DNA of 64,000 bases from a virus. Below, in pieces: positions 13,371-48,107 of this stretch. The notes beneath the pieces are model-generated. The model was not told where the DNA came from. It did not search any database and saw only the letters and a program-made list of their open reading frames with translations. The DNA is taken from positions 1 to 64,000 of IMG/VR virus record IMGVR_UViG_3300033273_000392; one strand, 5' to 3'. Each line of letters starts with the position of its first letter. Position 1 is the stretch's first letter. Both the position numbers and the translations under genes were made by a program.

Positions 13371-15269
13371 TTACTTTTTAAATCTCTTTTTAAACTGTTC
13401 AGCGTAGCTAGAGACATCGTACATTGGCTTCTCTTCCTGAGTCTTAGACTCATTAACCATTGCAAGTTTCTCCATGTTCTTAGACTCCTCTCTCATGTCT
13501 CTAGTCTGCCAGAAGTTTCTCACCTGATATTCAGTGTTTAACTTATGGTACTTAGACTGAGCTAAGATCTGGTTTTGCTTAGCTTCAGAAAGTGCTTCCC
13601 ACTTCTCCTTGTACTCTTCTGGCATTGCCTCTAGTACGAATGGTTGTGCATTTCTGTTTTCAACGATTAGCTGAGAAGACTCGATTAGAGAAACGATCTG
13701 TGCCTCTGTCATGAATCCTCTAGCAGAAACGTGCTTTCTAACTTCAGTCTTAGCGTCCTCGTTAAGCTCGTTGTACTTAGACTGAGTGTCTTTAGAAACA
13801 ACTCTGAAGAAAGATGGGCTCTCGTTTTCTCTTGCCTGAGCCTTTTCGGTTAGCGCACCAAGCTTAGCGCTAATATCGTTCTTGTAAGACTCTAGTGGAT
13901 CGTGAGCAGCATCTTTACCGTCAGTAGTTGGTGCAGTTGCAGTTCCAGACTTAGTCTCGTCCTCAACTTCAGCATCGTCCTTCTTCAATTCAGAATCTAG
14001 GTCTTCAGCCTCTTCACCTGCATCTTCACCTTCAACGCTTCCCTCTTTAGAGTTGTCACCAACTGCTTCTGGGTTTGCGTCTTCTTTTTCCTGTGATGCG
14101 CCTTCATCTTCAACCTCTTCAACTACCAAGCTTTCGTTGATAGATTCAGCGATGTATTCAGCATATTCTGCAACAGACTCTAGGCTTTCCTTTAGATATG
14201 CAGTATACTCTACTATATTGCTAACTTCTTCTAGACCTTCGTTCTGCGACTCAGCAAGGTAGTTTGAGTACTCCTTAACCTTGTTAACAGACTCTGCCAA
14301 GTGCTCAGCATATTGAATAGACTGGTCTAGCTTCTCAGCCAAGTGCTCAGAGTACTGGATAGACTGATCTGTTTTTTCTGCGATATGCTCTGCATATTGA
14401 ATCGCGTTATCTGTACCCTCAGCAACATACTCAGTGTACTGGATGTTTTGGTCTAACTTCTCTGCTAAATAGCTTGAGTAGCTTGCCAGATTATTTACGT
14501 TCTCTACGATGTGGTCGTTATGAGCAACTACGTTGCTTACCATTTCTTCTAGAGACGCAAGTTTTTCTGAAGCCTCAGAATCAGACTTCATCCCTTCAAC
14601 GCTGTCTTTAATAGACTTGATTTGCTCAGCTAGATACTGAGTGTACTTGTTGAAGTCATTTGTATTAACAAATTCTTCCATATTTTCGCTTGGTTTTATT
14701 TCGTTTGATTTTGTTTCATTACTATTTATCTCATAGATAAAAAGGTTATCATCGTTAGAGAATCCGTAAGACTCATTAACTCTTGATAGTTCCGCATTTT
14801 CAAATCCAGGATCTGCGACTAGATCGTATGTAAACAGTTGCTTAATCTTAACTTTACCGTTAGACTCAACTGTACCAGCAGCTCTTGAAGAGATCTGCAA
14901 TGGAACTCCAGCGTCAACTAGGGCCTTAGCCTGTCTTCCAGCATCTGTATCTAATAATCTGATTCTTCCTCTAACCTGCTTACTGTCCTTATCGTAGTAT
15001 AATTCTTCTACGATATGAGAAACATTTTTTAAAGAAACATCAAACTGCTGAGGGTGATCTAGCTCACCAAGAAGCTTAGAAGACTTAATCTTCTTTTGGA
15101 GCGACTCGATCTGAGGAAGATACTCTGCCTCAGTGTAGATACGATTATTTTTATTCTTGGAATCAATCTCTCCAAAAATACCCTCTAAAACGTAGTCTTT
15201 AGTCTCACCAGAAATGGCAAGGCTACCAGACGAACGTTCTACGATTAGTAAATCCTTTTGATTTATCAT
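13371..15269 (-). CDS. 21: Fused prohead protease (gp21-like) and scaffold (gp22-like)
   Basis: Residues 1 to about 160 are the prohead serine protease: catalytic His72 in LGELDHP, serine in the QISSRA motif at about 125-130, and DPGF at about 153. This enzyme matures the head by cutting core and capsid proteins. A low-complexity linker (about 182-196) leads to Met197 and a long acidic coiled coil with 14-residue repeats, then a charged tail, resembling the scaffold gp22. In T4 these are two genes. An in-frame ATG at 14681, after an A-rich stretch, could start a free scaffold. A GATATATA motif lies 21 bases upstream. The gene sits between core proteins and gp23, as in T4. Confidence 0.88.
   Translation of the reverse strand: MINQKDLLIVERSSGSLAISGETKDYVLEGIFGEIDSKNKNNRIYTEAEYLPQIESLQKKIKSSKLLGELDHPQQFDVSLKNVSHIVEELYYDKDSKQVRGRIRLLDTDAGRQAKALVDAGVPLQISSRAAGTVESNGKVKIKQLFTYDLVADPGFENAELSRVNESYGFSNDDNLFIYEINSNETKSNEIKPSENMEEFVNTNDFNKYTQYLAEQIKSIKDSVEGMKSDSEASEKLASLEEMVSNVVAHNDHIVENVNNLASYSSYLAEKLDQNIQYTEYVAEGTDNAIQYAEHIAEKTDQSIQYSEHLAEKLDQSIQYAEHLAESVNKVKEYSNYLAESQNEGLEEVSNIVEYTAYLKESLESVAEYAEYIAESINESLVVEEVEDEGASQEKEDANPEAVGDNSKEGSVEGEDAGEEAEDLDSELKKDDAEVEDETKSGTATAPTTDGKDAAHDPLESYKNDISAKLGALTEKAQARENESPSFFRVVSKDTQSKYNELNEDAKTEVRKHVSARGFMTEAQIVSLIESSQLIVENRNAQPFVLEAMPEEYKEKWEALSEAKQNQILAQSKYHKLNTEYQVRNFWQTRDMREESKNMEKLAMVNESKTQEEKPMYDVSSYAEQFKKRFKK
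14130..14471 (-). repeat. 14-residue tandem repeats in scaffold coiled coil
   Basis: About residues 267-380 of the protease-scaffold protein repeat a unit such as HLAEKLDQSIQYAE with period 14 residues (42 bases), seven to eight degenerate copies. The heptad-compatible period points to a long coiled coil forming the prohead core. Confidence 0.75.
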
Positions 15270-21294: not shown

Positions 21295-21302
21295 TATATA
21301 TC
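21295..21302 (-). promoter_or_regulatory. Putative late promoter core GATATATA, 4 bases from gp15 start
   Basis: Minus-strand GATATATA with only ATCA between it and the ATG. It overlaps the end of the cysteine synthase gene. Confidence 0.6.
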
Positions 21303-22176
21303 AAAGACAGGTCATGTATCTGTCTCCACGGTCACATAGTATCGTTGCAACCACTTGCTTACTATTTGCTTTAGCCCATCTTACAGATGCTAGAACGTTT
21401 GCTCCTGCTGAAATTCCCACAAAATAACCCATCTTAGCCAATTTAAGAGCCATATCCTTAGCATCGTCTGTTGAAATAACTTCTATATGGTCAACTTCCT
21501 TTAAGTCAACCAAGAACTTAGAACCATCACCAATACCTTGAATGCCATGGAGTCCGGGTTCGCCGCCTGACATAACAGCAGACTCTGCAGGCTCAACAGC
21601 AATAACCTTCATGTCATAATACTGATCTCGTAGATATGTACCTGCTCCCATAATAGTTCCGCCAGTTCCAGTACCTGCAACAAATGCATCTGGTGTAACT
21701 TCTAGATCTTTAAATGATTCATGAAATTCTGGCCCAGTGGTTTCATAATGTACATCGATGTTCCATTGCGTATGGAACTGATTACAATTAAACCATCCTT
21801 CGTTCTTGCGGGCTAGCTTGTCTCTAAGGGCAATAGCTCCATCAAAATCACCAGCAGGAACTTCGATAAGCTCAGCCCCATAATAGCTAAACATCTTCTT
21901 TCTTTCTTCGCTCATATTTGATGGCATAACAATTACCATTCTATAGCCGAGTAGAGCTGCGAACATGGCAAGTGCAATTCCAGTGTTTCCGCTAGTTGCT
22001 TCGACTAGAGTATCGCCTTTAGAAATAAGTCCTCGTGATTCAGCTTCAGTTATAACCCTAGAAGCTAATCTATCCTTAACAGATCCACTGGGGTTTAAGA
22101 ACTCTGCTTTACCTAGAACAGTAACTCCGTCTATTTCAAGTTCAATAAGTGGGGTCTTTCCTACGTATTCAATCAT
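21301..22176 (-). CDS. cysK: Cysteine synthase A-like enzyme (O-acetylserine sulfhydrylase)
   Basis: The 291-residue PLP enzyme would make L-cysteine from O-acetylserine and sulfide. Motifs: PLP lysine K34 in NPSGSVKDR (28-36), substrate loop TSGNTG (61-66), PLP phosphate loop GTGTGGT (168-174), and GISAGAN near residue 254. Length is slightly below bacterial CysK (about 320), with a shorter C-terminus. The start codon overlaps the gp46 stop as TGATG, so it is translationally coupled to a recombination gene, not part of any host-like sulfur operon. It is an auxiliary metabolic gene; a moonlighting role through CysK protein partners cannot be excluded. Confidence 0.9.
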   Translation of the reverse strand: MIEYVGKTPLIELEIDGVTVLGKAEFLNPSGSVKDRLASRVITEAESRGLISKGDTLVEATSGNTGIALAMFAALLGYRMVIVMPSNMSEERKKMFSYYGAELIEVPAGDFDGAIALRDKLARKNEGWFNCNQFHTQWNIDVHYETTGPEFHESFKDLEVTPDAFVAGTGTGGTIMGAGTYLRDQYYDMKVIAVEPAESAVMSGGEPGLHGIQGIGDGSKFLVDLKEVDHIEVISTDDAKDMALKLAKMGYFVGISAGANVLASVRWAKANSKQVVATILCDRGDRYMTCL

Positions 22177-40387: not shown

Positions 40388-40765
40388 TTACTTTTCTAGC
40401 CTTTCATTAAGAAACGACTTAAAACTGTAAATGTATTTCATTTCAGAAGTCTCTTCTTCCTCTTCGTCTTCTTTTCTGCCAGCTGGAACATCTCCAGAAC
40501 CGACTTCGCCAGTGTCTGGATTTGGAAAGGCTACTGGACCCATGCCGCTTATCTGTGCTGGAGTTATACCTTCTCCGACCTTATCAGGGAGACCTTCGTG
40601 TTTAGTCTCGGCAAAATCTTTAAGCTGCTTTAAAGTCATATTATCTACAAGATCCTCTACATCATCCCTATAAGATGAATCGACGTCAGAAAGTTGCATA
40701 TCACCGTTTTTGACGGCGTATGCAACTCCCATTAGTCTCTGTTGTGATTTACTTGTACTAGGCAT
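40388..40765 (-). CDS. DUF3008-like protein with capsid-protein-like segment and C-terminal targeting-like peptide
   Basis: The 125-residue protein starts with TSKSQQRLMGVAYAVKNGD and has TLKQLKDFAETKHEGLP, the pattern of DUF3008-type phage proteins. Residues about 72-92 contain SGMGPVAFP and GSGDVP, closely similar to the N-terminal arm of the major capsid protein here (TGMGAVSFP, GSGDKAP). It ends MKYIYSFKSFLNERLEK, which looks like a capsid-targeting leader placed at the C-terminus. It lies 3 bases after the 659-residue gene and before a terminator. A capsid-associated or packaged protein is likely. Confidence 0.6.
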   Translation of the reverse strand: MPSTSKSQQRLMGVAYAVKNGDMQLSDVDSSYRDDVEDLVDNMTLKQLKDFAETKHEGLPDKVGEGITPAQISGMGPVAFPNPDTGEVGSGDVPAGRKEDEEEEETSEMKYIYSFKSFLNERLEK

Positions 40766-40768
40766 TAC

Positions 40769-42748
40769 TTATGCTGGCATGTAATTTCCTTTTACGTACT
40801 TATGAATATCATTTATTTTCTTAGCAGCGGCATCGGCCTCGTCCTTATAGTATGAGGTACCGTTAGCTGCTTTACCTCCGGTTTCAGCTTCCCACTCTGC
40901 GACTCTTCTATTGTAATCAATATATTTTCCATATAGATCCAACGCTCTTGACATAGAGTGTGATGCATCTCCAACACTGTGCTTAGTGCCAGGGATCGCA
41001 ATACTTCCCCATTGGCCAGATTCTCCTGCTGCAATACCAGCTGAAACTGCATTACTTATTAATTCAACAATTTCTTTAACTAATGCATCAATATCTGTTT
41101 CTGATGCTCTCTGCTTAAGAATAGCATAGTATCTTTGCTGATTTTCTTTTCTAAACTCTTTATCACTAGTAAATGCAAGTGCACCTTTCTTAGCATCTTG
41201 TCTTGCTGAAATCTTATCAGATGTACTATATTTGTCACGTAGAGCTTGAACGTTAAATACAAGGGCCCTATCAGCCATTTCAGCAATTCTCTTTACATTG
41301 TATAGTCCAGTAGCACCGTATCCTTTGTACTTTTTATCAATACCATAAGAACCTACACCACGGTAACCTTTACTTGATTTTGTCAGACTACTGCCGCGTT
41401 TCCAGCCGCCAATTCCCATAAAATCACCATTACCATTAGAAACAGCTAAGATAAATCCACCGCCCGGAATAGTGCCATATGCACCTCGATCGGTATACGG
41501 GTTTTCTTTTTCATTATCTGAGATATAGATGATATACGTATTGTAATTATATCCCTTTTTACCCTGTTCAAGCTTATATGCATCTTGTGGGTCCATAACA
41601 GAAATATCTTCATCCTGTACTTTGTCTAGTGCGATCTTTGTAGACTGATAAAAAGCATTAGATAGTCTAGCGTCAACCTTCTTTTCATTAGAATGTCTAC
41701 TAGTATTACTAAAGGCGTCTCTTAATAGATTAGAAGAGAACGCTTCATTTAGAATAGAATACTTATCTAATTGCTTTTCTTCTTTTAGTAGAGCAGAAAA
41801 GCTTTCAAAAGATTCAGAAACGATTTTTTCTTCAGATTCAAAGAAGCTATTAAATACGTCAACAACGCGCTGTGCTTCATTACCAAATCCAATAGACTCT
41901 AGGTAAAGAGCAGCTCCTTCAACTACACCAATACCAGCAAAACCTGCAGCAGAAGATGCTAGGCTGTAGTGCGATTCGATAAACTGCTTGACTTGTGCGT
42001 TTGTTAGAACAATCTCATGTCCACCTAGTTCAGCTAGTCTAATAGCCAATGGTCTGTATGCTCTTGGGGTTGCTTTAGGAAAAGCTTTTCCAACCGCTTC
42101 CATTTCTCTGTGGAAGTTTGCGTCTTCCATACCGTTCATTGTAACTTGCTTTAGAGCTAGAAGTAGGTTAGCCTTATCCTTTGCAAGACCCGATGCGGTA
42201 ACTTCAAAGAACTTCTTAAGAGCTGCAAATACTTTTTTAGCCTCTCTAGACTCAACTTTAATTGCTTCGTTCATTGTATTGTTTGTATTTTGTGTTTCTT
42301 CTTGTATTGATTCATCAGAATCTTCTTCCTCACTTACATCTTTAACAGTAACTGGGAAAGTTTTACCTTGGAACTCAAACTCCTTTAAGCCCTCGGCCTT
42401 TGCAGCTCTAGCCGCAGTAATAAATGCGTTTCTACCTTCATCGATCTCCTCTTCTTCGTTGACCGCTAGGGCTGAAAGTGCCCTTTGTCCAAACTTAGAA
42501 AGCTTAACACCATCTTCTGAAACGCTAAAGTACTTTGCGTTTCTTCTTAACCATCTTTTAGAATCGCCGCTAAGCTCAGAAACAAGAGCATTAAACTCTT
42601 CTTGTGTAATCTGGCCGTCTGCAATTTCAGATAGAACTTTATTTCTTATTTTAGCAGTAAAACCCGCCTCTAAAGCAGGGTGGTTTTCTGTGTATCTTCT
42701 CTTGAGAGTAATCTTCTTTCTCTCATTTAAATAATCATTAAAATTCAT
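40769..42748 (-). CDS. 659-residue putative packaged protein with capsid-targeting-like leader
   Basis: Family not recognised. The N-terminus MNFNDYLNERKK resembles a capsid-targeting leader; LNERKK-type sites followed by prohead cleavage are plausible. Residues about 103-138 (EGRNAFITAARAAKAEG... KTFPVTVKDV) repeat a module found in the 215-residue protein of the same cluster. A second FESFSALLKEE motif occurs near residue 315. The C-terminal 300 residues form a globular domain with glycine-rich text (GTIPGGGFILAVSNGNGDFMG near 420) of unknown activity, perhaps an enzyme or toxin-like domain. A variant late motif, AATATATA, lies 19 bases upstream. Confidence 0.65.
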   Translation of the reverse strand: MNFNDYLNERKKITLKRRYTENHPALEAGFTAKIRNKVLSEIADGQITQEEFNALVSELSGDSKRWLRRNAKYFSVSEDGVKLSKFGQRALSALAVNEEEEIDEGRNAFITAARAAKAEGLKEFEFQGKTFPVTVKDVSEEEDSDESIQEETQNTNNTMNEAIKVESREAKKVFAALKKFFEVTASGLAKDKANLLLALKQVTMNGMEDANFHREMEAVGKAFPKATPRAYRPLAIRLAELGGHEIVLTNAQVKQFIESHYSLASSAAGFAGIGVVEGAALYLESIGFGNEAQRVVDVFNSFFESEEKIVSESFESFSALLKEEKQLDKYSILNEAFSSNLLRDAFSNTSRHSNEKKVDARLSNAFYQSTKIALDKVQDEDISVMDPQDAYKLEQGKKGYNYNTYIIYISDNEKENPYTDRGAYGTIPGGGFILAVSNGNGDFMGIGGWKRGSSLTKSSKGYRGVGSYGIDKKYKGYGATGLYNVKRIAEMADRALVFNVQALRDKYSTSDKISARQDAKKGALAFTSDKEFRKENQQRYYAILKQRASETDIDALVKEIVELISNAVSAGIAAGESGQWGSIAIPGTKHSVGDASHSMSRALDLYGKYIDYNRRVAEWEAETGGKAANGTSYYKDEADAAAKKINDIHKYVKGNYMPA

Positions 42749-42767: not shown

Positions 42768-42775
42768 TATATATT
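42768..42775 (-). promoter_or_regulatory. Variant late-type promoter AATATATA for the 659-residue gene
   Basis: Minus-strand AATATATA, one mismatch to the GATATATA motif, 19 bases before the ATG at 42748. Confidence 0.35.
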
Positions 42776-44630
42776 AGTCTGACATCTTTATAAATTCAGA
42801 AAAGGTTAGTAGATTTGACTCATAAACCTTAGATTCTGCAGCTGCCATAGACATTTCTAAAGTATCTTTAAGCTCTTTATACATTCCATGAATCTCCTTA
42901 GGAGTAAGCTTCTTAAATAAGCGCTCGTCTCCATCTAACATCGCGTTTCTAACTTGAGTAGCTGAAATGTTTTTACCTGTTCTAGGAATCTCAAATAGAC
43001 CAAAATCATCTCTAACACCCAGATCTTCTCTGTATTCTTCTTTATCTACCTGGTAACTATAAACCTTAAGTCTATCGCTACCAGTTCCCCATAATACTGG
43101 TTCATATTTAGGTCTCATCATATTGAACATCTTATCAATAGCAGCGGATGGAACAATAAACACCTCTTGAATAGGGTATTTTCTTTTTAGCATATTAAGC
43201 ATCTTAACCTGCATCTCTTCAGAGTAAGGTCTCTTAAATGCATCCTCAGCCTTTCTCGTTTTTGACTTAACTAGAAAAATAACTACAGGATATCCATTCT
43301 CTTTATGAATTGCATTTATAACTTTAGCGTGGCCTAGTGTAAACGGCTGGAATCTACCAACAAACATGTTTACTGGCATTTTACCTTGTTCTTTATACTT
43401 TACATCAAGTGCCTCCATAACCGGTGAATCCTGAGACTGTATCTTTTCAGCTTTTAAGAAAGTGTTATATGTCATAATGCTAGACTCTTCCTGCTTCATC
43501 ATGATTCTATCTTCTATTTTTTCGACAATATCATTCATCTGACTCATAAGATCTGCATTTATAATCTTTGTTTCCTTGGTTCTCTTTTTTCTAAATGAAC
43601 CTAGCATAATCTTAAATAGCTCTGAAAGATCCTCGTTAGAAACAAGTTCTATAGTTTTTTCGTTTGTTATAAACTCCCTATTTAGTTCAAATCCGGGCTT
43701 ACTAGCAAATCCAGCCGAATCAAAGTCAGCTCCGATATACTTAACCGCATTCTTAGAAATGTAATCATTGAATATGGTAGACATAATCTCAAGATATCTA
43801 AGATCTGTATCTTCTTCTAAAAGATCTAAGGAACCTATGTTGTAGTCCGAAAGGTATTCTACTAAGTCTAGTATTGAAATCTGATACATGTCAGACGCCT
43901 CTCTTTCCTCATCGACCTTTCTATCAAATCTAGAAAGCTTAAAGTTCTTTATCTTTTTGCCATCAGCAAATGAGACTATTAATGAATCTATATCAGCATC
44001 TAATCCCTCATGTAATGCTGTCTTAGAAAGCTGCTTATTAAATATACCATAAACGCTTCTGGTAAAAGAGTCATCCTTAAATCTGTTTTCAAAGGCTTCA
44101 TCGCTTAACTCTAAAAGAGAAATAAGGTCATCCTTTTGGTGTGATGCAAGTACACCCTCGAATATAACAGGAATGCTATTTACATCAAGAGTATTAGCCC
44201 ACTTTTCTAAGATTTTAGGGTCTCTGATAACCTTTTTAATCTGTGTTGGATCTGTTGGATTTAAAACCTGAATGTGCGTTAGTATAAGGTGGTTCTTAGG
44301 AAGATTATCATACTCAATGTCGACTGTTTTTCTATTAGTCATATAGTCAAAACCAAACTTCCAGTCAGATGGCATCTCAGCCTTAATCTCGTCCGAAATA
44401 GAATGAAAATGCCCTATTGCGTTTTCGTAGTATTTAACAATTGTTCTATCGACCCTTGTCATAGGATATTTAGATCCACTCTTGTAGAACTCATATCCTT
44501 CAGATGTTCTTCTAGCATGAAACGAAGATGCTTGTACCTTTTCTGTAACTATGCACTTGTTTTTCAACATGTCCATAAATTCATTTCTATTACAAGAATT
44601 AAAATATGTTCTTAAGTTTTCAAGTGCCAT
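42774..44630 (-). CDS. Fusion of RNA-ligase-like domain and HxGH nucleotidyltransferase (NMN adenylyltransferase-like)
   Basis: Residues 1 to about 290 look like an RNA ligase / covalent nucleotidyltransferase: motif I TEKVQASSF with Lys31 (degenerate, QA for DG), FGFDYMT near 93, PVIFEGVL near 155, DSLIVSF near 217 and KNFKLSRF near 226. Residues 418 to about 600 are a cytidylyltransferase-fold domain with GRFQPFTLGH (425-434) and ISATQVR (555-561), as in NMN adenylyltransferases. Between them MTYNTFLKAE (386-395), and at the end LLTFSEFIK, resemble capsid-targeting peptides. Roles could be nucleic-acid repair and NAD synthesis; substrate is unknown. It overlaps the next ligase-like gene by 1 base. 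Confidence 0.6.
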   Translation of the reverse strand: MALENLRTYFNSCNRNEFMDMLKNKCIVTEKVQASSFHARRTSEGYEFYKSGSKYPMTRVDRTIVKYYENAIGHFHSISDEIKAEMPSDWKFGFDYMTNRKTVDIEYDNLPKNHLILTHIQVLNPTDPTQIKKVIRDPKILEKWANTLDVNSIPVIFEGVLASHQKDDLISLLELSDEAFENRFKDDSFTRSVYGIFNKQLSKTALHEGLDADIDSLIVSFADGKKIKNFKLSRFDRKVDEEREASDMYQISILDLVEYLSDYNIGSLDLLEEDTDLRYLEIMSTIFNDYISKNAVKYIGADFDSAGFASKPGFELNREFITNEKTIELVSNEDLSELFKIMLGSFRKKRTKETKIINADLMSQMNDIVEKIEDRIMMKQEESSIMTYNTFLKAEKIQSQDSPVMEALDVKYKEQGKMPVNMFVGRFQPFTLGHAKVINAIHKENGYPVVIFLVKSKTRKAEDAFKRPYSEEMQVKMLNMLKRKYPIQEVFIVPSAAIDKMFNMMRPKYEPVLWGTGSDRLKVYSYQVDKEEYREDLGVRDDFGLFEIPRTGKNISATQVRNAMLDGDERLFKKLTPKEIHGMYKELKDTLEMSMAAAESKVYESNLLTFSEFIKMSD

Positions 44631-45919
44631 TATCTTCCGTATTTAATGATTCCCATTAGCTGGTTTATAGCAGCAAATGTACCTGTTAGTTTGTAAGTAT
44701 GTCCCTTATATCTAAAAACAAGACCTTCGGTAGGTACAATTGATTCTATACCTCCAATTCTATCTAGTCTCTTTAGTTCGTCCTCTACCTTTTTAATTTG
44801 CTTTTCATCGCCTCCCTTTTTAATCTTATCTGCCTCCGTTCTTATTTCGTTATGCAATCTCTGCATTTCTTTATCAGGCGATACTGCCAAAAAGTTAGAT
44901 GCATTCTTTAATATGATAGAGCCTAACTCTAAGAAAAGATCTTCAAATGGCTCTATGTTTTCTTTATACTTTTTCTTTACATCCTCTTTATCAAACTTCT
45001 TAATAGATGCAAGTTGATTCTTGTCGACTGCCTTTGCTACAGCTCTCATATCAAGTGTCTTCTTATCACCATATGCCCATCTTAAAAGAAGACCCTCTTT
45101 AACTTCCTGAGGTAGGTCTGAGAAATTAGATTCTATCTGCTCTCTCCACCACATCTCGTGATATCTTGATACTTCATCTGAATCAGATAAACTGTATCTT
45201 TTCTTTAGAGATTCAACCTTAGCTAAAAATTTAGACTTATTTTTTTCAAAGTCTACATCCTTTCTAAGTTGTATAATTCTAGGTGGTATAATTTCAAAAG
45301 TATCACCTACCCTTGCGTTTACTTTATCTAATAATGATGTTATTTCTTTTGCTCCCTTTGGATTTTGTCCTATAATATTACCTTCGCCATCTGTTTCTAC
45401 GATACCGTGAAATTGTATAGCATCGACATCATAGTGTATTACATTAGGATTCTTAGAGTAGATAAGCTCCATGTTCATAAATGACTTTCCGTCATTAAAG
45501 TACTTATCTAAAACATCTTGCTTTATCTTAGGAAGATTAGTCGATAAATCCTTAGCTGCTAGTGTAAATGTATCTCTAACTAACTCGCTAGGATGATCGG
45601 CAAACATTGCCGTTATACCATCTAGATCCAGAGGAGCCATAAGTTGTGTCTTGTTTCTAGCAAATAGAACAACACCGCCTTTGACAGTAGCAAATACATT
45701 CTGGCCGTCTGTTTTTTCTGTAGGATCCTCTTCAAAGTTTAACTCGCCGCTAAGACCTGATTCTATAAGGTTTTTAAAGTCACCAAACGTAAGTGATTTG
45801 TTATCAAACGGGTGTGACATATGGCCGGCTGCACCGCCCTCCATAATAAGAGAATGGCCCGCTACTGCGGGCTTCTCCTTCTCAAATAAGAATTGCTTAT
45901 ATGTAAAAAATCTATTCAT
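44630..45919 (-). CDS. ATP-dependent ligase-type nucleotidyltransferase with capsid-targeting-like leader
   Basis: The 429-residue protein starts MNRFFTYKQFLFEKEK, a targeting-type leader, then GGAAGHMSHPFD, known from a conserved family in T4-like marine phages. Motif I is PTEKTDGQN with candidate Lys69; FMNMELIYS near 148 is motif III-like; TEGLVFRYKG (about 397-406) is motif IV and YKLTG is motif V. It therefore has the full nucleotidyltransferase core of DNA/RNA ligases and capping enzymes. The nucleic acid substrate is unknown. It overlaps neighbours by single bases, tying it to the ligase-nucleotidyltransferase fusion and the acidic 215-residue protein. Confidence 0.65.
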   Translation of the reverse strand: MNRFFTYKQFLFEKEKPAVAGHSLIMEGGAAGHMSHPFDNKSLTFGDFKNLIESGLSGELNFEEDPTEKTDGQNVFATVKGGVVLFARNKTQLMAPLDLDGITAMFADHPSELVRDTFTLAAKDLSTNLPKIKQDVLDKYFNDGKSFMNMELIYSKNPNVIHYDVDAIQFHGIVETDGEGNIIGQNPKGAKEITSLLDKVNARVGDTFEIIPPRIIQLRKDVDFEKNKSKFLAKVESLKKRYSLSDSDEVSRYHEMWWREQIESNFSDLPQEVKEGLLLRWAYGDKKTLDMRAVAKAVDKNQLASIKKFDKEDVKKKYKENIEPFEDLFLELGSIILKNASNFLAVSPDKEMQRLHNEIRTEADKIKKGGDEKQIKKVEDELKRLDRIGGIESIVPTEGLVFRYKGHTYKLTGTFAAINQLMGIIKYGR

Positions 45920-46566
45920 TATCCTAGAGAGCTCTGTAGCATGCCTACTGCAGCGCCATAGTCTCCTTCTGCTTTTGAAAGTATTCCGTCAATTGTCTCT
46001 TGTGCCTTTGCTTCGTCAAAGTCATCACCGAATGCCTTTTGAAGAACTGCTTTAGCATACTCAGAAAACTCTTCGTCAGAATTAACTTCTGCTTCACTTA
46101 CTTCAGCTTCTTCAACCTCTTCGGTTTCAGTAACTTCTTCAGTTGCTTCTTCAGTTGCTTCTTCGTTAGCAGCGGCTTCCATTTCCTCAGCATTTTCTTT
46201 ATCGTCGGCATCGACGTCTTCTACTGGGTATGTTTCACCGTCAACTGTAAACTCTTTTTCGCCGTCTGCTATAGCCTTAGCTCTTGCAGCACCAAACGCA
46301 TTACCTTCTGAAACATAAGCCTCTTCTAATCTATCGATCATATAAGTTACGTCTTCAGAACTTGCGTTTTCTTTTAATCTATCAAAGAAAGATGCCTTGT
46401 CATCATCGTTTAACTCTGAAATTTCAGAAACGCCGTATTCAGACAACAGATCTTTAAAGCTCTGTGCACTAGACGCTCTTTTTGCTTCTCTTTCTTCTTC
46501 AAGTTTTGCAGTTTGTTGTTCCTTTCTAAACTGAGAGAAAGAGTTAAAGTCGTGTAGTTTTTCCAT
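45919..46566 (-). CDS. Acidic 215-residue putative core/internal protein
   Basis: The protein starts MEKLHDFNSFSQF, another targeting-like leader. It has SEISELNDDDKASFFDRL near 48 and, at 87-117, SEGNAFGAARAKAIADG... ETYPVEDV, a module shared with the 659-residue protein. The middle is extremely acidic (EEATEEATEEVTETEEVEE region). Such composition is typical of head core or scaffold proteins removed or degraded on maturation. A GATATATA motif lies 33 bases upstream, making it the first gene of the 46566-40388 late unit. Confidence 0.62.
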   Translation of the reverse strand: MEKLHDFNSFSQFRKEQQTAKLEEEREAKRASSAQSFKDLLSEYGVSEISELNDDDKASFFDRLKENASSEDVTYMIDRLEEAYVSEGNAFGAARAKAIADGEKEFTVDGETYPVEDVDADDKENAEEMEAAANEEATEEATEEVTETEEVEEAEVSEAEVNSDEEFSEYAKAVLQKAFGDDFDEAKAQETIDGILSKAEGDYGAAVGMLQSSLG

Positions 46567-46598: not shown

Positions 46599-48107
46599 TT
46601 ATATATCCCCATCAAATTTGATCTTTTTAATAACGTATTCAAACTTTTGTTCTTTGTAGATTCTGCGGCGTTCTATAGCATGTCGCATTAGATAGTTTGT
46701 CCACTCATCAGAAGATAGGTCATCTACAAAATCAATGATAGTTACGCTATCTTTTGATTCATGTTGTCTTAGACCACGGCCTATAGACTGTCTAATGATA
46801 ACCTCTGATTTAAACGACTCTGTAAAGAATATATTGTGGATCTTCTTGATCGAAATACCAGTTGAAAATGTACCGTATGATGCCACAATCACTACTTCTT
46901 CACCAGCCTCCATCTTTTTTTTATACTCCTCTCTTATGTCTTTATCGGTTCCACCATCTACATAATAGACTATCTTATCACTATCAGATCTAAGCTTATC
47001 ATATAGCTTTTTACCATGTTCTATTCTATGGAACAAGACAAGTGAGTTGCCAGGAATCTTAGCTACAACAGAGTTTATAAAGCTAAGTCTTCCAGGGGAA
47101 TTTATAACATAATTCTGTTCGAACTTAAATACATCCTTACTCTCATACCTATTTATTGCCATCTCACTAAACGCCTTCTTAGTAGAGTCTGATGCATAGT
47201 CCATCTCTATAATCTTTACTTTACATCCTGCAATATGGCCTTCTTTCTGCAAGTAGTTCGCGCTAACCTCTGTAATAACAGGGCCAGTATATGCCATCAA
47301 GGTAAGCCTATCTAGCTTTCCTTTTTTAGGTATAGTTCCTGATAGACCGTATCTGTATTTTGCATTGATACACTTCTGTAAGATCGCCTTGATAGAAGTG
47401 GACTTTGCCTTGTGCGTTTCGTCAATAATTACCGCATCAAATTGTTGGAAGTAATCCTTTGGCTTTTTAACAAGTGACTGATATGTACCTATAACCACAT
47501 TTCTGCCTTGGCGTATCTTCTGTCCTGAATAGATCTGCTGAACCTTTATACTTACCCTATTCTCATAATTGTAATCAAGGAAATCCTCGCTTGCCTGAAC
47601 TACAAGAGATACGTTAGGTACTATAAATAGAATCTTATTAGCCTTCTTTTTTTCTAGCATGTATGCAACCGTAAGAAACGATATAAGAGTCTTACCTGCC
47701 GAAGTGGCAAGTTCAGCAAGGCACCTCCTAAACTTCAATATATTATAAGCTGCCTCTATCTGATAGTCCCTAGGAGTTATCTCGCTGTCCTTAAAGAACT
47801 CTAATGCCCATGCTTCGAATTCATCTTGCTTTATAGACTTATCAAATATCTCTGTAATACCATTAAGCTTAAGGTCAAACTTATAGTCCTTACATAAATC
47901 CATGATGTCTTTCCACAGACCTGATGGAATCCATTTATTATCCTTTATGTACGAGACATAACCATCCCACACACCTCGTTTAACCAAGGGGTTGAATCTC
48001 CAAGAATCAATCCTCTTAGTTAACGAGATGTTGAGCTGCTCTATCTCCAGCTCTGTCGCAGAATCTACTCTAAGAAACTGCTTATTTTCGGTTAAGCTAA
48101 GTTCCAA
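46599..48107 (-). CDS. uvsW: RNA-DNA helicase UvsW
   Basis: The 502-residue superfamily 2 helicase unwinds R-loops and branched DNA, switching replication to the recombination-dependent mode. Motifs: TPRDYQIEAA (Q-motif-like) at 111-120, Walker A ATSAGKT at 134-140, DETH at 229-232, GLSGTIP near 251 (motif III), and RQSIGRGLRQ near 440 (motif VI). Length matches T4 UvsW (503). It precedes uvsY here by 24 bases in map order, and in T4 the two are also close. Confidence 0.94.
   Translation of the reverse strand: MELSLTENKQFLRVDSATELEIEQLNISLTKRIDSWRFNPLVKRGVWDGYVSYIKDNKWIPSGLWKDIMDLCKDYKFDLKLNGITEIFDKSIKQDEFEAWALEFFKDSEITPRDYQIEAAYNILKFRRCLAELATSAGKTLISFLTVAYMLEKKKANKILFIVPNVSLVVQASEDFLDYNYENRVSIKVQQIYSGQKIRQGRNVVIGTYQSLVKKPKDYFQQFDAVIIDETHKAKSTSIKAILQKCINAKYRYGLSGTIPKKGKLDRLTLMAYTGPVITEVSANYLQKEGHIAGCKVKIIEMDYASDSTKKAFSEMAINRYESKDVFKFEQNYVINSPGRLSFINSVVAKIPGNSLVLFHRIEHGKKLYDKLRSDSDKIVYYVDGGTDKDIREEYKKKMEAGEEVVIVASYGTFSTGISIKKIHNIFFTESFKSEVIIRQSIGRGLRQHESKDSVTIIDFVDDLSSDEWTNYLMRHAIERRRIYKEQKFEYVIKKIKFDGDI
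46600..46607 (-). promoter_or_regulatory. Putative late promoter core GATATATA for the capsid-targeting cluster
   Basis: Minus-strand GATATATA overlapping the uvsW stop, 33 bases before the ATG at 46566. It should drive the whole 46566-40388 unit. Confidence 0.6.

Follow-up and report, generated by a model that had tools for sequence, protein, structure and literature searches.

Linked ligase-type and HIGH-superfamily nucleotidyltransferase proteins as candidate parts of a virion-delivered end-sealing kit in T4-like phages

Introduction

The window analysed here comprises 64,000 nucleotides of a virus (positions 1 to 64,000 of the IMG/VR record IMGVR_UViG_3300033273_000392) and carries, on its minus strand, two adjacent genes that overlap by one base at position 44630 (AGATAATGGCA, TAATG). 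Their products are termed protein A, which joins an N-terminal domain with the fold of T4 RNA ligase 2 (AN) to a C-terminal nucleotidyltransferase (NTase) of the HIGH superfamily (NT), and protein B, a ligase-type covalent nucleotidyltransferase; the original prediction, made from the letters of the window, had the placement and overlap of both genes right (Table 1). The whole virus record is 149,352 bp long, and the genome-wide scans for partner genes cover all of it; absences from the record are provisional, because it may be incomplete. It is established that phages produce RNA ligases once infection has begun, which reverse the cleavage of tRNAs, and that they inject effectors, among them Alt and IPI.

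Table 1. Features of the locus and of the prohead protease gene (coordinates within the window)
Feature	Position	Strand	Description
Protein A gene	42774..44630	-	618 residues: Rnl2-like domain (AN), HIGH-NTase (NT) and C-terminal aromatic tag
A C-terminal tag	42777..42812	-	LLTFSEFIKMSD
NT	42831..43388	-	Residues 415-600 of A; nucleotidyltransferase of the HIGH superfamily with intact active-site signatures
AN	43431..44630	-	Rnl2-fold domain of A, residues 1-400; AlphaFold2 pLDDT 84; Foldseek match T4 Rnl2
AN motif I	44526-44543	-	E30-K31-V-Q-A-S
Protein B gene	44630..45919	-	429 residues: intact ligase-type covalent nucleotidyltransferase, helical insertion of about 200 residues before motif IV
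B motifs IV/V	44681..44728	-	EGLVFRY...YKLTG, residues 398-413; E398, G399, K410, T412, G413 in 59/59 relatives
B motif I	45704..45718	-	E68-K69-T-D71-G72; 59/59 relatives
B N-terminal tag	45881..45919	-	Capsid-targeting-like, MNRFFTYKQFLFE; holds an L-x-E site of prohead-protease type
125-residue protein	40388..40765	-	DUF3008 domain (Pfam E = 2e-10); ends in tag SFKSFLNERLEK
659-residue protein	40769..42748	-	Downstream of A; N-terminal tag MNFNDYLNE, KRRYTE domain
UvsW helicase	46599..48107	-	Neighbour of A and B
Prohead protease open reading frame	13371..15269	-	Peptidase_S77, T4 gp21 type, E = 1.8e-13, above cut-off; protease match at 14859-15206

The two proteins

Protein B was described at the outset as an intact ligase-type enzyme with the motif TEKTDGQN, a description borne out by motifs I, III, IV and V in all 59 of its diverse relatives: E68-K69-x-D71-G72, R88-N89, E151, E398-G399 and K410-x-T-G are retained throughout, and a segment GGxxGHxxHP ahead of motif I is likewise invariant. 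No family library names the protein. Its structure model, with a predicted local distance difference test (pLDDT) score of 89, a predicted template modelling (pTM) score of 0.84 and residues 11-28 disordered, finds Trl1, Rnl1, the ligases of Aquifex and Palaeococcus, and Rnl2 as top PDB fold matches, at weak E-values of 2e-3 to 0.2; these low scores probably arise because about 200 helical residues lie between motifs III and IV. Once proteins of its family and phage proteins without a name are set aside, most structural neighbours in the viral library BFVD are RNA ligases. The H..HPF segment led to B being considered as a LigA-type NAD+ (nicotinamide adenine dinucleotide) ligase, a candidate that was rejected, since no test supported it and PF01653 is absent from the record.

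Protein A was modelled with AlphaFold2 from 48 relatives (pLDDT 84, pTM 0.63), and the ligase-like fold proposed for its N-terminal half is present: the best Foldseek match of AN is T4 RNA ligase 2 (2hvr; E = 4e-8, probability 1.00), followed lower down by fungal and archaeal RNA ligases. In Pfam, neither A nor B reaches the gathering score of PF09414 (best relatives E about 0.005), and a sequence-only search of the PDB with the B and AN profiles returned no ligase match. The label "degenerate" given to this domain is apt for the canonical K-x-(D/H)-G, whose D/H and G are lost in favour of EKxxA[SP], with A in place of G in 38 of 48 relatives; it does not fit the other lysines and acidic residues of motifs I, III, IV and V, which are largely kept. 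Within the clade of A, E30-K31 and K231 are retained, with E30 in 48/48 and K31 in 47/48 relatives, a D/E at motif III in 45/48 and at motif IV in 44/48, and the motif-V lysine in 46/48. Motif I of Rnl2 reads EKIHGT, which the EKxxxS of A resembles. AN, which stands alone in huge phages and in the loci L070, L286 and L304, may serve for binding or may be an enzyme that has diverged.

The C-terminal half of A is the one part that Pfam recognises (CTP_transf_like, E = 9e-8). Against the PDB, the NT profile ranks archaeal nicotinamide mononucleotide (NMN) adenylyltransferases (NMNATs) and NadM first (E = 1e-9), and the model of this half resembles phosphopantetheine adenylyltransferase as well as archaeal NMN adenylyltransferase (TMt 0.71 to 4yp7), so that its original designation as NMN-adenylyltransferase-like agrees with its fold. 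Sixteen relatives of NT share GRFQPF, GH, D105/R106 and S..T..R without exception. All motifs first quoted for A (TEKVQASS, GRFQPFTLGH and ISATQVR) are present, and those of A and B are not chance resemblances, because they are conserved among relatives. At the same time, NT scores 30.2 bits against the NCBIfam NMNAT equivalog TIGR01527, whose cut-off is 181.2.

Targeting tags and prohead protease

In T4, the capsid targeting sequence has about 10 residues, of which positions 4 and 7 serve targeting and positions 8 and 10 permit processing, with gp21 cutting after L/I-x-E (PMC9026906). The tag of B has the form Y7xxF10LxE13, and 37 of 40 non-redundant relatives carry [FY]xx[FY][LIV]x[ED] with varying intervening residues. 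At the opposite end of A, the motif [TSQ][FY]xx[FY] occurs within the last 16 residues of all 48 relatives, compared with 6 of 1692 internal 16-mers (0.35%), and the standalone AN keeps it at its own C-terminus. Across the genome, 14 of 141 open reading frames hold [FY]xx[FY][LIV]xE in their first 30 residues, where 1.2 would be expected from the internal frequency; in the tag-enrichment shuffles the mean was 0.34 and the maximum 3 of 200. The window also encodes a prohead protease of the gp21 type, the open reading frame of which has 632 residues with an uncharacterised extension; T4 gp21 is about one third as long. From these sequence features, A and B appear to be cargo of the virus particle. 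The word "packaged" in the original prediction is thereby backed by the tags, the protease and the published virion detection of an analogous cyanophage NTase, while for A and B themselves packaging stays a probable property.

Similar tags were noted on genes elsewhere. L286 (2487-5990) and L304 (3352-5989) hold arrays of small dissimilar genes, nearly all of which start with MKH[VI]KLFEQ[FY][IV]NE or an MRYVKLFEQF-like sequence, as a modular packaging tag would. In the record itself, positions 101694-106765 (L330/L331) hold seven adjacent genes, six with an MK[YH][IL]K...F-type start; the other one (104868-105797) encodes a GNAT domain followed by the internal tag MKHLNLFESFVNEA, and several look ADP-ribosyltransferase-like by eye, with Pfam silent except for a weak KptA/Tpt1 match (E = 0.02). 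This tagged cluster is flanked by chaperone genes of DnaJ-like (100773-101576) and DnaK-like (107267-109117) type.

Recurrence of the ligase-nucleotidyltransferase pairing

T4-like phages repeatedly combine a ligase with a HIGH-NTase in one module; the pairing is specific and is found in at least five arrangements in distant phages. At least 98 IMG/VR stretches match A and at least 558 match B; the counts below refer to fetched loci, some of which are overlapping views of the same contig. B is followed by the AN-NT fusion in 262 loci, B, NT and AN are separate genes in 9 loci (2 more show NT and AN, with no B in the fetched stretch), and AN stands ahead of NT in 3. Tandem duplication of the B and A pair was seen in L007 and L258, in each of which two B genes and two A genes follow one another. 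Most of about 30 further long B proteins of metagenomic phages, as well as Microcystis phage Mel-JY01 and LR756508, have a HIGH-NTase fused ahead of B; these fused NTases belong to at least two sequence types (PGRFQPMGxHH and FPGGFKPLTGAH), and the fusions sometimes add a DEDD exonuclease (L241, RNase_T E = 8.5e-6) or a ParB-like domain (L165, ParB_N E = 4e-4). CPt10 of Campylobacter and pv27 of Vibrio each encode one polypeptide in which an intact KxDG ligase-like domain is followed by a HIGH-NTase at the C-terminus. In Xanthomonas phage X1 and Stenotrophomonas phage Ps15, a short KxDG protein directly precedes a HIGH-NTase, and the gene upstream carries the Pol-beta-like motif GDIDI/GDVDI; the Pol-beta and ligase labels in these two phages rest on motifs, Pfam being silent. 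Pol-beta-like NTases were seen by motif in L230 and L070 as well. In phage PA5oct, an NTase was found with no ligase adjoining it.

Genes with Pol-beta-NTase-like motifs (GS...GDIDI/GDVDI) lie near the ligase and HIGH-NTase at L070:5570-6448, L304:4865-5989, L348:533-1687, L346:1128-2138 and L345:1390-2310, with no significant Pfam match. An intron or intein, considered for the long match in L069, L070 and L080, was rejected: B, NT, the Pol-beta-like gene and AN are separate genes there.

DUF6267 proteins and cyanophage T4-GC190

Cyanophages and phage DLP6 encode a DUF6267 protein with KxDG and EG...K motifs that is followed, directly or one gene on, by a cytidyltransferase. Among 80 DUF6267 loci in IMG/VR, a HIGH-NTase follows a short way downstream in 65 and is absent in 5, and 10 end too early to judge, which gives 65 of 70 informative loci. 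The putative cytidylyltransferase T4-GC190, a cyanophage core gene product, was found in purified virions of cyanophage S-SM1 in 2010 (PMC3037559), and N-terminal tags are seen in its P-SSM4 member (MKKFSAFLKEA) and syn9 counterpart (MKKFSAFLSEA). The literature searched contains no account of the DUF6267 and cytidyltransferase combination and leaves T4-GC190 unexplained.

The DUF6267 profile PF19782 finds no match in B, and the BFVD structural matches of B include phage proteins of 300-446 residues, none identified as DUF6267. In hhalign comparisons, B with DUF6267 and B with AN each give a single-pair E of about 0.05 and z of 2.3-3.7 against column shuffles, save the A2-DUF6267 comparison: the larger alignment of B with DUF6267 yields z = 3.0 (0/60 shuffles), and the smaller A2 alignment z = 0.6 (16/60). 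Homology of B with DUF6267 is suggested by motifs in collinear order and by the larger alignment, but not by the smaller one; for B and AN the profile comparison is likewise suggestive only. Beside these loci, cyanophage genes upstream of DUF6267 or of the cytidyltransferase were noticed to have in common a (G/P)(V/I)SLK pattern that recalls PD-(D/E)XK nucleases (L168:6321-7640, L336:3206-4936, L337:3750-4922 and L338:1478-2977), and phrog_12709 links the similar-looking Stenotrophomonas protein Ps15_147 with a KxDG protein.

Neighbouring genes and host

The KRRYTE domain of the 659-residue protein downstream of A is joined to an NTase in L199, L201 and L203. T4 rnlB, which encodes RNA ligase 2, also sits between head gene 24 and uvsW; its placement and that of A and B near uvsW are a positional parallel only. 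Both flanking proteins (40769-42748 and 45919-46566) carry the pattern EG..AF..A..A...G..EF...G..(F/Y)PV, which recurs in cassette proteins of L304 and L286. Further away, at 21301-22176, the motif NPSGSVKDRLA predicts a cysteine-synthase-like pyridoxal-phosphate enzyme, possibly an auxiliary metabolic gene.

The phage infects marine bacteria, and a host among the Bacteroidota is likely, because the nearest match of its ribonucleotide reductase is in Flavobacterium phages. B is regarded as a phage gene, since it occurs in only 8 loci across 84,980 bacterial and archaeal species, mostly on short contigs of metagenome-assembled genomes.

Interpretation and alternatives

A and B are read here, with a probability of about 0.5, as parts of a virion-delivered kit of T4-like phages for processing and sealing nucleic-acid ends. 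The short aromatic tags at the N-terminus of B and the C-terminus of A would bring the proteins into the prohead core, where a gp21-type protease could trim B after L-x-E, and both would enter the cell along with the phage DNA. B would then make a Lys69-AMP intermediate and seal ends that bear a 5'-phosphate, and the Rnl2-like half of A might help to bind or present these ends. In a coupled reaction, the HIGH-NTase would transfer a nucleotidyl group to a phosphate, in the simplest case turning NMN into NAD+, or else adenylylating a polynucleotide or another phosphate. The nearest folds, those of RNA ligases, favour RNA as the substrate, with DNA as a candidate beside it. If this reading holds, the phage would bring a repair kit, ready for use, into the cell together with its DNA, and a particle-borne ligase would face fast-acting nucleases from the first moment of infection. 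RNA ligases and HIGH-NTases are already known, as are targeting tags and polyvalent proteins that are injected (PMC7824862, PMC5512222, PMC9026906); a virion module of ligase and HIGH-NTase was not found described in the literature searched, outside which subscription papers lie.

Several observations weigh against such a kit. The fold match of B has low scores (PDB E = 2e-3, TM about 0.2), motif I of A is non-canonical (EKVQAS), and in the AN of huge phages the motif-I lysine is gone too (ENIQGS, EDVQGS). The homology of B with DUF6267 is suggestive rather than firm, virion detection is documented only for the cyanophage NTase T4-GC190, and no AAA_33 domain of an end-healing polynucleotide kinase was found in the 149-kb record. 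Unrelated co-packaged proteins may likewise cluster and fuse. Classical T4 tRNA repair was rejected as an explanation on account of the missing AAA_33 kinase and of a Pol-beta-like neighbour that is unmatched to RlaP and reaches only Polbeta (E = 0.09). The proposal that one protein unites RNA repair and NAD synthesis as an immediate counter-defence stays a conjecture, and its NAD half is weak: no NadV, AAA_33 kinase or NAD-dependent ligase was found in the record, and the NMNAT score is 30 bits against 181.

The same kit could act on DNA, sealing nicks or ends of the incoming phage genome instead of RNA, as in African swine fever virus, which has a virion-borne repair set; this version is somewhat unlikely, with RNA ligases (Rnl2, Trl1, Rnl1) ranking before DNA ligases among the nearest folds. 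In its favour, relatives add the DEDD exonuclease, the ParB-like domain and, at the level of motifs, Pol-beta-like NTases (L230, L070, X1, Ps15), and neither a PF01068 nor a PF01653 DNA ligase was found in the record. A more specific scheme, in which the HIGH-NTase chemically feeds the ligase in a widespread and so far unrecognised virion-delivered repair system, either with NAD+ made from NMN for an NAD+-using B or with pre-adenylylated 5'-phosphate ends, would act before phage gene expression and have T4-GC190 as its best-known part; it is a speculative and rather unlikely proposal. Restoration of NAD+ after NAD-depleting defences by an injected NMN adenylyltransferase, with the ligase half a bystander fused for co-packaging, would suit the intact NTase signature and the archaeal NMNATs and NadM that lead the PDB profile matches, yet it is quite improbable: NadV/NAPRTase (PF04095) was not found in the possibly incomplete record, and all NadM phages of PMC9503650 also carry NadV. 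A salvage pathway of NadV plus NadM was rejected for the same absence. The equivalog shortfall and the many ligase-linked NTases of other sequence types tell against NAD+ supply as well; since the ligase partners carry several HIGH-NTase types, NAD synthesis need not be their common job, and the missing NadV together with this variety weakens an NAD purpose.

That A and B share nothing beyond packaging tags, being injected effectors of unrelated function that merged into polyvalent proteins and follow no common pathway, is also a poor prospect. It would accommodate the runs of tagged dissimilar proteins in L286, L304 and record positions 101694-106765, the fusion of the NTase with KRRYTE, a head-cassette domain, at three loci, and the known theme of polyvalent injected proteins (PMC5512222); a specific ligase-NTase pairing in at least five arrangements across distant phages speaks against it. 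Structural or dead enzymes, or a small-molecule role of the NTase, are very improbable given the full conservation of the catalytic residues of B and NT, even though the huge-phage AN lacks its motif-I lysine and reviewers have assigned cyanophage HIGH-NTases to the synthesis of nucleoside diphosphate sugars (PMC7824862).

Comparison with known systems

The proposed kit of A and B resembles several known systems in part. T4 Rnl2 (gp24.1, PF09414) shares its fold with the N-terminal half of A, which differs in having EKVQAS without H/D and G, no Pfam match and a fused HIGH-NTase. Archaeal NMNAT and NadM share with the C-terminal half the fold and the signatures GRFQPF..GH, GSDR and ISAT..R; A differs in falling far under the equivalog cut-off, in the lack of NadV from its record and in having no Nudix domain in the protein. 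CPt10_0251 and pv27_0281 (phrog_27149) have, like A, a ligase-like domain followed by a HIGH-NTase homologous to NT (E = 1.5e-13); their ligase halves are canonical (EEKYDG/EHKTDG), unlike that of A, and the significant alignment covers the NTase halves only. The internal proteins IPI-III and Alt of T4 share with B the Y/F-xx-F-[LIV]-x-E tag and with the phage a gp21-type protease, whereas their cargo differs, and the tag of A is C-terminal and without the Glu required for cleavage.

The nearest parallel in gene order is that of DUF6267 (PF19782) with T4-GC190. B differs in being undetected by PF19782 and in a profile similarity that is suggestive only, whereas the pair of a KxDG protein gene and a HIGH-NTase gene, as well as the tags, are shared with A and B. 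DUF6267 and B both have H..H(P)..D before KxDG, PN(T/V)I.Y and a C-terminal EG...K, and the link between ligase and NTase in the particle, if true, would point to what DUF6267 and T4-GC190 do.

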